From Ophryocystis elektroscirrha (lineage: Eukaryota; Apicomplexa; Conoidasida; Neogregarinorida; Ophryocystidae), in the NCBI GenBank assembly GCA_030141585.1, contig JAQIFP010000023.1, positions 83,656 through 147,655 on the forward strand: a DNA stretch of 64,000 nucleotides, read 5' to 3'. The position numbers and the translations under genes were made by a program. Numbering within the stretch: the stretch's first letter is position 1; each line of letters begins with the position of its first letter. Below the pieces are notes generated by a model that did not search any database, was not told the DNA's origin, and was given only the letters and a program-made list of their open reading frames with translations. Positions 5,201-51,162 of this stretch are shown piece after piece.

Positions 5201-5406
5201 AATTCTTAAATCTAGACGTTGAAGATGAAGCTAAAGTTATTTTGCAACCAAAAGCATCTAAACTTCAAGTACTTTTGCACTAATTTTTATTGTCTATTTA
5301 GAATTTATTTGGTGATATAATGAAAGGAGAACTACCGAAGAAGAACAAAAAAAGAAACACTGAGGATTCGAAAAAAATTAAAAAAAAAAAACTAAAAGAA
5401 CTCTGA
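2263..5406 (+). CDS. NOP9: Nucleolar protein 9-like Pumilio-repeat RNA-binding protein
   Basis: Multi-exon gene of roughly 570-600 codons. Puf-type repeats are recognisable: DQKGSKLIERV, FDSAGSHVIRSCL followed by VLNGL (the NOP9 signature repeat), NPNGSRLYESLV, DPNGNFIIQHLI and NPSGNFKTLW. NOP9 proteins bind pre-18S rRNA in the nucleolus and are needed for small-subunit maturation. Exons include 2263-2478, 2862-3229, 3264-3384 and 3417-3470, then about eight more up to 5406. Introns are tiny: 34 nt at 3230-3263, 32 nt at 3385-3416, 22 nt at 4171-4192 and 18 nt at 4806-4823. All junctions keep frame. The basic Lys-rich C-terminus suits a nucleolar protein. Its last codons overlap the stop of the convergent RPA1 fragment. 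Confidence 0.87.
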
Positions 5407-8400
5407 TTTATACGACAGCCTTGATTTTTTAACGTCATTTTCATCAATATATTCATCTCCAGTAGTTATATCTTCTCCTATTCTTTTTTTGGTATCTAAT
5501 GCTGCGAGTTTATCCATGATTTCGTCTTTTAATTTTTTTGCGTGTAAAAGATAGTTCAATGGTTCTAAAAACAGGTTTTTTTTTTATTTTCTATCAGAAA
5601 GATTTTTGAACAAATAAATATATATATTCAGTGTGATAATAAAACTCAGGTGAGCAGTTTAAAGTTATTGATTAAATGCTTAGAATTTGAAGTTATGTTT
5701 TTAATACATATATGTATATTATATATTATATACATATATATTATATTAAATATATATAATATATAGTATAGTATATTACATATATATATATTATATATAT
5801 TATATATATATATATATTATATCATATATATTATATATATATGATATAATATATTTATTTATGAATGATTATTATAAATAAAAAATGATTATTATAATAT
5901 ATAATGATAATTGTTTTATTAATAGACAATACCAACTATCAATAAATAAAATAATTTATTAAATTTTTGAGCAGTTCCATGTACAATAACATCAATAAAA
6001 TTACCTGCATATAGTATACTGACAGTAGATCGAGCGGTGTCCGCATAATACTCTCTACGGACACGTATTCGCATACGGTAGTACTGGAAAAAAAAAGTTA
6101 GTAAAATATGATTTTGTTACTTTCCAAAGAGCATCATATTCAAGTAATTCAACGATATCATTGGGAAGTTCGGAGGTTAACATATTTGGAGTTATTGATT
6201 TAGCTAATTCGCTTGCATCAACTTTCAGCAATTCTTTTCCTACGTCGTGAAAGACACGGGCCGTAAACTGACTGGCAGTGTGATCAGTTAGCTGTACTCC
6301 AAATAAATATCTACAGAAAAATTTATAATATTTGTGCACCAAGTTTTCTTATAATTTATTGTATAATAATAAACAACTCTTTGTTATTTATAATAATTAA
6401 ATTAATTTGGTAAAAGTTGAATAAATTGGTTTATAATTCAATCTATATATGTTAATTTATATCTAACCACATAAAACAATTAAACTTACATCTAGAAATG
6501 TTCATCTATATATATTATATATATATTAAAGCGATAATTATTGATTTCAATATAATCTATAAATATATATATATATATATATATATATATATATATATAT
6601 ATATATATATATATATATATATTATATTTAATATAGAATATCTGTAAAGTAAAGCATACCATATCAGATATTATTTACCAAATAATTATTATAAACTCTT
6701 CTAAAAAATATTTATATTATGAGAAAATTATGTTAAACGATGCATTGAAAACTATTTAGAAAATAATCCTTTAAGTGTATATACATATTCAATTGTTTAT
6801 TTACCTGTAGTTGGGCTCGTCTATTTCAGTCTTGCAAGATTCACAATGATATTTACCAAATGTTTCTACAACCTTTCTGTTGCATTGTTTACAAGCCTGA
6901 GGGAAAAAAAAGTAATTTATTGATTCAATAGCCTTACTGGATAGAAAAGAGTAACGTTGCTGTTTCTATTAGAGTAAATCAAACGTGATGGCTGCGCAAC
7001 AATAGTGAATATGTCTTGAGTATCAGAAGACGGTTGACTCGATGCAGTCGAAGAAATAGGAAGAGTAGGGATTATTTCATTTATTTCGGCTAAAGTCTAT
7101 TAAAAAAACATTATTTTGAAATTATTCGAATCCTCTTTACATACATTTTTGTATTGAAATGAAAAAAAACTATATTATTGTATATTTCAGCATCCACCTT
7201 TATGTAAACAGATGCATATATAGCAATATTCACTTAATATATATATGCATCATATATACATCATGTTGACATGATATATATATATATATACATCATACTA
7301 ATATCATATATATACATCATATCTGCATCACATATACATCATATATATATATCATGTATACATCAAATATACATCAATTATACATCAAATTTACATCCAG
7401 TATACATTATATATATATATATATATAAATCGTATAGACATTATATATACATAATATATATATATGTATATATATCATGTATACATTATATAAACAGCAT
7501 ATATGCGTCATATATATATCATGTATAAATCATATATATATTATGTATACATCATATTTTCATATATACATTTTATACATGATATATATATATATATATA
7601 TATATATATATTATTCACTTATCATGTTATCACTGCTATAAAATCCTAATTACATTACTTTTATATTATCGTAATTCCCGTTTTGAGATCGGTTTGTGTT
7701 TTCTGTATAAAGACTTTCGGATAATGATACAAATGTTGCATTTTGTCCTTCAGAATCATACCATGAGCGAAACGCTTTCAACTCAGGTATGTCGGGCTCG
7801 ATTTCAACATGAGTGTTGCGTAAAGAAGAAGCTGTTAAACCTCGATACTGACGTATTTGAACATTTTGCAAAGCAACTGTTTTCGACTGAAGGTCTAGCT
7901 TTGTTAAATTTCCGAATAAAGTCAAAGTTATTTCAAAGCCTGAATCGTCCGCCAATAAACAGACACGGCGAAGTCCAGCGTCTTGGTTGGTTCGGTTAAT
8001 AAACTAAACAAATAAAAGTTTCAACATAATTTTTATATGAATATTTCCGTAAATACTATATAACTTAAATAATACACTTATTTTTGCCTCAAATAATAAA
8101 AACTTGTTTATATTTTTTATTTTCTATATAAATATTAAAAATATATATAAAATATATATATAAATATTGAATATATACTTAAATATTCTATATACCTATA
8201 TATCCAATATTCATGCAAAGAAGCTTTATAACCACACGCATACTCAAGTATATCTAAATATCATCAATTGTATGGTTATATTCCCATCATATGGTAGTAT
8301 GTATAAAATTAGAATCGAAAATTAATTTCTTCCATACTATTACTATTGTATATGCTTATAAGGTTTAAAACTTTATTTAAACTATATATGCATTTGTTAG

Positions 8401-8594
8401 TAAATAAATTAAAAAAAAAATACATATTTGATTAATATTTTAAAACACTTTAAGTGGGCGCATATACTTTAATCATAATTACTTACAGTTTCAACATTTG
8501 GAGATGCCCATTTAACATATCCTAATAAATCAACCAAGTAAGGGGGCTCTTTAGAACTATTTTTAATGTCTTCAAGCTTTGTGAAGTTATATCT
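5392..8594 (-). CDS. RPA1: Replication protein A large subunit, C-terminal part (DBD-B and DBD-C); 5' end missing here
   Basis: Minus-strand exons encode the second half of RPA1, the single-stranded DNA-binding subunit for replication and repair. In order: the start of DBD-B (exon 8487-8594), the rest of DBD-B with RRVCLLADDSGFE and TLFGNL (exon ending at 8003), a linker, the zinc ribbon of DBD-C (CKQCNRKVVETFGKYHC then ESCK), and the nearly invariant block LFGVQLTDHTASQFTARVFHD. The last exon ends at a TAG at 5392-5394. The first exon begins at a splice acceptor (ttttcag before 8594) in phase 2, so upstream exons are required, but only about 340 bp of AT repeat separates it from RPN6. The matching N-terminal half lies at 50019-51162. 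The gap at 7240-7620 is an intron full of AT repeat. Confidence 0.93.
7200..7620. repeat. AT satellite with recurrent tatacatcat motif inside an RPA1 intron
   Basis: The region repeats short units such as tatatacatcata and catatatacatc with variable spacing and ends in a pure (TA)n tract at about 7580-7612. It lies between RPA1 exons and therefore within an intron. An open frame of Ile/Tyr/His residues here is a by-product of the repeat. Confidence 0.75.
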
Positions 8595-8599
8595 GAAAA

Positions 8600-8941
8600 T
8601 ATATTATACATGTTCTGCTTAAATAACTTTAAGTATTCAGCTTAAAAAAATAAGTGGCTATGTGTATATATAATATTGACTCATATTAAAAAAAAATATC
8701 AATATATATATATATATATACAAACTAATATACTCTAGCAATATAGATATATAATAGATTTTATACATAATATATATATATATATATATATATATATATA
8801 TATATTCAAATAATTATAATAATTATATTGATAATAAAAATATCTTTTTAGTATAATAGTCACGTAATTTGATAGAACTATATTTGTTTGTATTAATGTG
8901 TATGTATATACCGAATTAAATGTGGACATTTGTTTTGGCAG
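8600..8941. repeat. AT microsatellite gap between two 5'-truncated divergent genes
   Basis: (TA)n tracts lie at about 8701-8720 and 8770-8805. No coding exon is visible on either strand, although both flanking genes need upstream exons here: RPA1 (minus, first exon ends at 8594) and RPN6 (plus, first exon starts at 8942). This is the left boundary of the suspected misjoin. Confidence 0.75.
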
Positions 8942-49781: not shown

Positions 49782-49913
49782 ACTACTATTATTATTATTA
49801 TTATTATTATTATTATTATTATTATTATTATTATTATTATTATTATTATTATTATTATTATTATTATTATTATTATTATTATTATTATTATTATTATTAT
49901 TATTATTATTATT
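49782..49913. repeat. (ATT)n microsatellite, about 44 units, running into an assembly gap
   Basis: Uninterrupted tat/tta trinucleotides from about 49787 to 49913 stop abruptly at the N run. The open frames of poly-Asn, poly-Ile or poly-Tyr here are artefacts. This is the right boundary of the suspected misjoin. Confidence 0.95.
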
Positions 49914-49930
49914 NNNNNNNNNNNNNNNNN
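49914..49930. other. Assembly gap, 17 N
   Basis: Seventeen unknown bases separate the ATT microsatellite from a short (TA)n tract at 49931-49942. The gap length may be nominal. RPA1 exons begin 90 bp to the right. Confidence 0.99.
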
Positions 49931-50018
49931 TATATATATATAAATTAAATATATGTAAAACAATTAATGTAATTATCATAAGGCGGAAATATTCTCTTTT
50001 TTTTTAATGTAAATTTAC

Positions 50019-51162
50019 TTTCTAGAGAAAGGAATTTTGATGTTTTTTGATTGCTCGTCATCTAATAATTCGATAACTGAATTCATATCAAAGGTGATTT
50101 CGTAGCCATGCTCTAAATTTGAATAACGTTTATTGGCTACTTGAACACGTCCTTTGGAGAATTTGTGTACCTAAAGTTCAACTATATATTCTTGATACTA
50201 TATATTTATTAATTATTTAATATATTCTTTAGCATTAGAAATAAATATTATTTGTTATACAATTTAGATCACACATTTGTTAGTTAAATTCAAATATGAT
50301 AAATAGTAAAACTATATAGCATACTCTACTATATAACATAATATTTTATTAACATAGTAATAACAGAGTAATATATATTAACCTATATATTAATATACAA
50401 TAATATAATATTAATATAATAATAGTAATTATAATAAATAATATAATAGTAATTAGATTATTATAATTATACTAATAATTATAATAATAATTATATCAAA
50501 TATTATAATAATAATAATAATAATAATAATAATGTATCTTATAATTTGAAAAACACTCTATAAAATATCAGCTGTATATAAATGTAAAACCGATATTAAA
50601 TATGTTAATAATATAGCTAAATACTCAATTAAATTAACATTAAAAAAACTTTAAGACTTATTTGATAATAAATTGTTATACGCACTAAATAACATAAAAT
50701 TTTAAGAAGTATAATAATTTACTTTTAATGTCACATATGCGCAAACTAATTACTGAATAATGTACTTATTTCCACCTTTCCTAACTTGATGTAATCCATC
50801 CATTTATCGCAAGCATCGCCCCAGAATTTCGCACGAATTGCATCTCCCTGTATAATTAGATATTAAATTTATTTAATACATATATATACATTTATTACAT
50901 TATTTATTTCTAATTCAAGTGCTGTAATTATTTAAATAAACGGTATATTAAATATATTACATAACATTAGTGTACATGTTTGAACATGCGTAATATAACT
51001 ATTATATAGGAATCTTACATGACAGTCCATAATATCAATACTTCCAATTTTGCTTGTTGTGCCATTTTTTTGGAACGTATTTATAGGGGATTTTTCAGTA
51101 ACTCTGCCACATATTGTCCAATTGGGAATCCAAGTAGTTAATTGTTTAACCGGTAAATACAT
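50019..51162 (-). CDS. RPA1: Replication protein A large subunit, N-terminal part (DBD-A); 3' end missing here
   Basis: Three minus-strand exons: 51162-51019 (WIPNWTICGRVTEKSPIN), about 50850-50775 (GDAIRAKFWGDACDKW) and about 50176-50019 (VHKFSKGRVQVANKRY and GYEITFD). These are the consecutive strands of RPA1 DBD-A. The ATG at 51160-51162 gives a short-type protein without the N-terminal DBD-F domain, as described for some apicomplexan RPA1 proteins. The last exon ends at a donor (AGA AA then GTAAAT) in phase 2. The expected next exon, DBD-B, is not to the left (gap and Asn-rich gene) but at 8594, where the acceptor continues phase 2 and completes the codon as Lys. The introns at 50180-50770 and 50850-51018 are AT-rich. 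Confidence 0.9.

Follow-up and report, generated by a model that had tools for sequence, protein, structure and literature searches.

A 41-kb split of the RPA1 gene in the Ophryocystis elektroscirrha assembly is best explained by a two-step assembly artefact

In a 64,000-nucleotide (nt) stretch of the apicomplexan Ophryocystis elektroscirrha (GenBank assembly GCA_030141585.1, contig JAQIFP010000023.1, positions 83,656 to 147,655; hereafter, the window), the exons of RPA1, which encodes the large subunit of RPA, lie in two groups separated by about 41 kb of unrelated genes. Very probably, RPA1 is a single ordinary gene with a third intron disrupted by a two-step assembly artefact, and the split would then not reflect real biology; the sequence supports this explanation but does not prove it. 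Coordinates refer to the window (Table 1) unless they are given for C34, the 175-kb contig that carries it.

When joined, the two groups form a gene of 10 exons, all on the minus strand, whose 503 codons and stop remain in an open frame throughout, as established by a check of splice sites and frame. The ATG that opens exon 1 lies at 51162-51160, exon 10 closes with the stop codon, and GT is present at 9 of 9 donors and AG at 9 of 9 acceptors. Exon 3 terminates in phase 2 (AGA AA before GTAAAT, at 50019), and exon 4, which follows TTTTCAG and begins at 8592, supplies as its first base the one that completes AAA. An earlier, sequence-only reading of the window had described two same-strand pieces about 41 kb apart that fit together in frame, with this same phase and completing base, and the 10-exon model bears it out; of the two exon blocks that it gave (50019-51162 and 5392-8594), the first stands, but the upper bound of the second moves to 8592. 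Exons 3 and 4 lie 41,426 nt apart. The remaining 11 introns that were modelled, which belong to RPA1 and to RPN6, the gene on the far side of the left junction, range from 37 to 605 nt, and this separation is thus some 68-fold greater than the longest of them.

The joined protein carries the DBD-A, DBD-B and DBD-C OB folds in that order, with matches above the Pfam cut-off to PF01336 (residues 15-88), PF16900 (137-226) and PF08646 (322-457), and its residues 3-459 match residues 185-607 of human RPA70 (E = 3.7e-48). The 3' group of exons (8592-5392) contributes DBD-B, DBD-C with its four-cysteine motif, and the stop. Nine proteins matched the joined protein at E values up to 0.001, the best two of which (P0001 and P0002) cover 97-98% at 43-44% identity. 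Both span the two halves and align without insertion or deletion at the join, where the sequence reads IPFSRKYNFTKLED compared with IPYLRKFNFTTLRD and IPYIRKYNFMTLRD in these relatives, in agreement with the earlier claim that the protein passes straight from DBD-A into DBD-B as in known RPA1 proteins. A match of phase alone has a 1-in-3 chance of arising at random, but the continuation from DBD-A to DBD-B against both intact relatives takes the fit far beyond chance. The cysteines of DBD-C at residues 328, 331, 344 and 347 are invariant in the four aligned sequences and form a putative zinc motif. Judged by these sequence and profile matches, the product is the predicted RPA large subunit, with an ordinary function.

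DBD-A directly follows the start codon, with no preceding N-terminal interaction domain in the model (no search for upstream exons was made), and P0001 and P0002 have similar starts, 11 and 8 residues longer. In having DBD-A first, then DBD-B and a four-cysteine DBD-C, the protein resembles the short-form RPA1 of protozoa, such as Cryptosporidium parvum CpRPA1A and Plasmodium falciparum RPA1, and differs from them only in the arrangement of its gene in the present assembly, a likeness drawn from published descriptions. According to passages in PMC12427563, CpRPA1A (~50 kDa), CfaRPA1 and PfRPA1 are short-type subunits that lack the N-terminal interaction region. P0002, the closest named relative of the apicomplexan RPA1 found here, is the protein LOC128883702 from the genome of a bee, Hylaeus volcanicus, and its likeness suggests a parasite sequence inside the bee assembly. 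An apicortin has been found in H. volcanicus, and bilaterian apicortins are viewed as contamination in a passage of PMC12189498.

The left junction breaks two genes, RPA1 being cut there and RPN6, which encodes a 26S proteasome subunit, losing its 5' part at 8942. The RPN6 exons match residues 137-344 of human PSMD11 (E = 9.2e-54), with 68 homologues at E values up to 0.001 among 276 candidates. The first exon found starts at the equivalent of human residue 137, no methionine occurs in its open frame ahead of the end of this exon, leaving the gene with no start codon, and the 349 nt that separate it from the nearest RPA1 exon are too short to hold the missing ~136 codons. Among five relatives reaching 53, 47, 43, 67 and 65 residues further upstream, none matched the assembly before the exon at 8942; these queries are themselves N-terminally incomplete and test no more than the 43-67 residues adjoining the break. 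Short exons can also be missed, and the evidence that the 5' part is absent is therefore good without being complete. A profile of the RPN6 N-terminus (PF18055) found no match, but its controls matched nowhere either, and the empty result obtained with a 64-residue N-terminal consensus is of a kind that carries no weight. A 12-residue match of P0039 at position 16216 of C34 (E = 0.03-0.06) was rejected as the RPN6 5' part, lying in noncoding sequence with stops.

The stretch from 8.6 to 8.94 kb (~92.25-92.6 kb in C34) thus probably fuses the introns of two genes, as a contig chimera would. It contains no N, and a perfect (TA)n of 36 nt lies within it at ~8770-8805. No second copy of its unique sequence was detected in the assembly by a search that skips simple repeats: among the 77 matches to the query, the other 76 fall within query positions 146-412, an AT-rich segment corresponding to 8645-8911 of the window. 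The same search returned only the right junction itself when that junction was the query.

At the right junction, the ATT array that precedes the gap is exactly 127 nt long and is the longest perfect microsatellite in C34, the next longest being 62 nt. The largest k-mer used by SPAdes is 127, and a contig from a de Bruijn assembler with this k would end after exactly one k-mer of the repeat. Past the gap, the 5' piece of RPA1 ends in TA repeats (TATATATATATA), as the 3' piece does. The simple repeats and the 17 N that the sequence-only reading had placed at the two edges, (TA)n on the left and an ATT microsatellite on the right, are present, with lengths of 36 and 127 nt. As stated in parts of the published reports, the O. 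elektroscirrha genome was assembled by SPAdes from 250-bp reads and then scaffolded by Rascaf with RNA sequencing (RNA-seq) data (PMC10210345), and Rascaf marks its joins by fixed runs of 17 N (PMC9694125).

These features suggest an error in two steps. In the first, the contig with the 3' exons of RPA1 would have been fused, at AT-rich repeats, to the contig with the 3' exons of RPN6, so that a single junction without a gap removed the 5' part of each gene. The 5' exons of RPA1 would have remained at one end of a separate contig, which also ended in TA repeats. In the second step, to which the 17-N gap points, RNA-seq pairs linking exon 3 to exon 4 would have led Rascaf to attach the 5' contig, in transcript orientation, to the far (right-hand) end of the chimeric contig. 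Intron 3 of RPA1 would then measure a few hundred bases in the cell. An RNA-guided join made on a chimeric contig yields halves that are on the same strand, in the right order and in frame, with 41 kb of unrelated genes between them; order and strand would then be set by the scaffolding and would not be evidence for one long gene. The 17-N gap, the contig end at a 127-nt repeat, the ordered gene halves and the cut through a second gene are all as in an artefact of SPAdes followed by Rascaf. From the exons, the frame, the homology across the join, the loss of the RPN6 5' part and the lengths of gap and repeat, all read directly, we infer both the behaviour of the assembler and the gene that gave the RNA link. 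The scaffold misjoin proposed by the sequence-only reading is therefore supported as an assembly artefact and is refined in its location: the 17-N join is probably RNA guided and not random, and the error probably sits at the gapless left junction (~8.6-8.94 kb).

Table 1. Positions of the RPA1 exons, the two junctions and the intervening block in the window
Feature	Position	Strand	Description
RPA1 exons 1-3	51162-51019, 50847-50776, 50170-50019	-	Start codon and DBD-A; from splice sites, frame and homology
RPA1 intron 3, donor side	49931-50018	-	88 nt; starts at the gap with TATATATATATA
Gap	49914-49930		17 N; length equals the fixed gap of Rascaf
ATT/(TAT)n array	49787-49913		Perfect, exactly 127 nt; an assembler contig probably ends here
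Intervening block	8942-49913		~41 kb; ~20 groups of open reading frames on both strands; probably misplaced
RPN6 3' part (26S proteasome subunit, PSMD11)	8942-11267	+	Homology; trace of a PCI domain in the last exon
Left junction	8593-8941		RPA1 intron fused to RPN6 intron; AT-rich, no N; probable contig chimera
RPA1 exons 4-7	8592-8487, 8003-7659, 7096-6938, 6896-6805	-	Splice sites and frame
RPA1 exons 8-10	6310-6121, 6083-6005, 5564-5392	-	Splice sites and frame

The open-frame groups of the intervening block include PA28, RING/PHD, GDA1/CD39, RRM, an MMR_HSR1 GTPase, HAT1 and an iron-hydrogenase-like frame. The earlier figure of about 20 unrelated genes between the halves agrees with roughly 20 groups of open reading frames, a grouping made by eye and not a set of gene models. 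The composition of the block is ordinary for C34: its G+C content is 26.5% (26.3% and 27.7% in the flanks), and its 3-mer distance to the rest of the contig is 0.098, within the 0.044-0.115 spanned by 18 sliding segments that include some overlapping the block. The idea of a foreign 41-kb block is accordingly unsupported, and contamination by a very different genome does not account for the block. The G+C contents of the window (26.7%) and of C34 (27.6%), along with a trace of an AP2 domain below the cut-off, are consistent with an apicomplexan of 27.18% G+C, the value given for the published assembly in a section of PMC10210345 that also lists a smallest SPAdes contig of 128 bp. The bee-derived relative P0002 and the 17-N gap likewise accord with O. 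elektroscirrha, a member of the Neogregarinorida.

Whether the halves could derive from two genes was addressed by searching P0002 against the whole assembly with only the best candidates scored, which gave nine matches: 7 to RPA1 exons and 2 within an RPA1-like gene on another contig, C1. Exons 1, 2, 3, 4, 5, 7 and 8 were each matched singly (exons 1-3 at 134677-134826, 134425-134517 and 133652-133852 of C34), and exons 6, 9 and 10 were unmatched as single exons. Since P0002 finds a single exon set and a separate gene on C1, the halves are not remnants of two intact short genes, within the reach of the exon-by-exon search, and the proposal that two paralogues each supplied one half was rejected. 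Two full-length RPA1 paralogues accounting for these exons, which the sequence-only reading had set against its own claim, were likewise not seen, the gene on C1 being the only other RPA1-like gene found.

This second gene, at ~294234-295787 of C1 on the minus strand, has 34% identity to P0002 over DBD-A and DBD-B, with a weak C-terminal match (E = 1.46). Its main frame, rich in asparagine, proline and glutamine, extends for 692 amino acids from the first ATG and, by a match to human RPA70 in which a 578-residue part was compared, contains DBD-A and part of DBD-B; a further same-strand frame of 260 amino acids has a cysteine-rich C-terminal part. The gene is "long" by length alone. C. parvum has two RPA1 subunits, as noted in part of PMC12427563.

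Several observations weigh against an artefact, or against the steps proposed for it. The block, as seen above, is not compositionally foreign. Judged by frame only, certain nearby AG sites beyond the gap would likewise keep the frame open after the exon 3 donor. The 5' exons of RPN6 were not located in C34 or at 12 contig starts (4 of which open with 5.4-7.9 kb of N), nor by protein queries. At 36 nt, the TA array falls short of k = 127, and a chimera at that point would therefore require either low coverage or an error in gap closing; in addition, the proposed Rascaf link would have to be accepted 41 kb from a contig end. The other unassigned gap in C34, at 162951-163050, consists of 100 N within a tandem repeat and perhaps comes from a different assembly step. 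The assembly analysed here (8,008,172 bases in 118 contigs) differs in size and sequence count from the totals of 8,631,036 bases and 156 scaffolds that appear in part of PMC10210345. Those published figures imply 88 joins in passing from 244 contigs to 156 scaffolds, and gaps of 17 N would then add 1,496 N; the published totals instead increase by 1,247, which is no exact multiple of 17.

The order as assembled would have RPA1 expressed across 41 kb, through a giant intron or trans-splicing, with RPN6 also split there, and this is very improbable. A real intron holding ~20 nested genes on both strands, all spliced out of one transcript, would fit exons that are ordered, in phase and on one strand, a left junction without N, and a block of ordinary composition. 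Such an intron would, however, be ~68 times the longest (605 nt) of the 11 others modelled; RPN6 is truncated within it at the left junction, so the nested genes are not all complete, and on the right it meets a scaffolding gap, at the longest microsatellite in C34. Order and strand are expected from RNA-guided scaffolding as well, and we consider a giant intron very unlikely; the sequence-only reading had ranked it as the less likely alternative and, given introns of 37-605 nt and the truncated RPN6, it is much less likely. If true, the real arrangement would be a striking case of genes within an intron, or of trans-splicing, in a small genome.

A true chromosomal rearrangement that split RPA1 into two trans-spliced pre-mRNAs, as in the split genes of Giardia, has the lowest probability of all. 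Both halves have normal splice sites and intact frames, and there is a precedent in Giardia Hsp90, described in a portion of PMC8494341, in which one protein is made from two distant exonic blocks, two open reading frames 777 kb apart being joined by trans-splicing. In contrast to the Giardia case, the distance here is explained by assembly, and RPN6 is interrupted where RPA1 is. The same event would have to break RPN6, whose 5' part was not found by five relatives, and a sequencing gap lies at one junction; nothing in the present data calls for trans-splicing. It is also very unlikely that an independent 41-kb contig was simply dropped into the RPA1 intron without RNA guidance. Simple repeats at both edges, one of them a gap, would suit this kind of misplacement, but the left edge has no N, the right gap has the 17 N of Rascaf, and chance placement alone would not give order, strand and frame. 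The two-step artefact, a contig chimera followed by an RNA-guided join, therefore remains the preferred explanation.

Two open frames within the block are of note. The single-exon frame at 36695-38248 encodes an iron-only-hydrogenase C-terminal domain and is distantly related to known proteins, including Nar1/NARFL-type proteins (best identity, 26% among the best 120 of 292 matches). The frame at 48330-49718, of 463 amino acids on the minus strand, is rich in asparagine and serine, has no Pfam match and starts ~200 nt from the gap, and could also be without some of its 5' exons. Elsewhere in the window, a 22-bp tandem repeat present in 16 copies fills positions 1-352, and a run of 7,000 N (76656-83655 of C34) immediately precedes it. 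A 90-bp tandem repeat of 15-bp units at 60519-60874, open on both strands, sits in an open frame of 1458 amino acids (59148-63521) with no Pfam match.

For curation, the scaffold probably needs to be broken at ~8.6-8.94 kb. More generally, an RNA-guided gap accompanied by gene halves that are distant yet ordered is a sign that the contig, and not the join, may be at fault. For O. elektroscirrha itself, gene order, intron lengths and counts of missing genes taken from the present scaffold would mislead, and RPA1 and RPN6 may score as fragmented.

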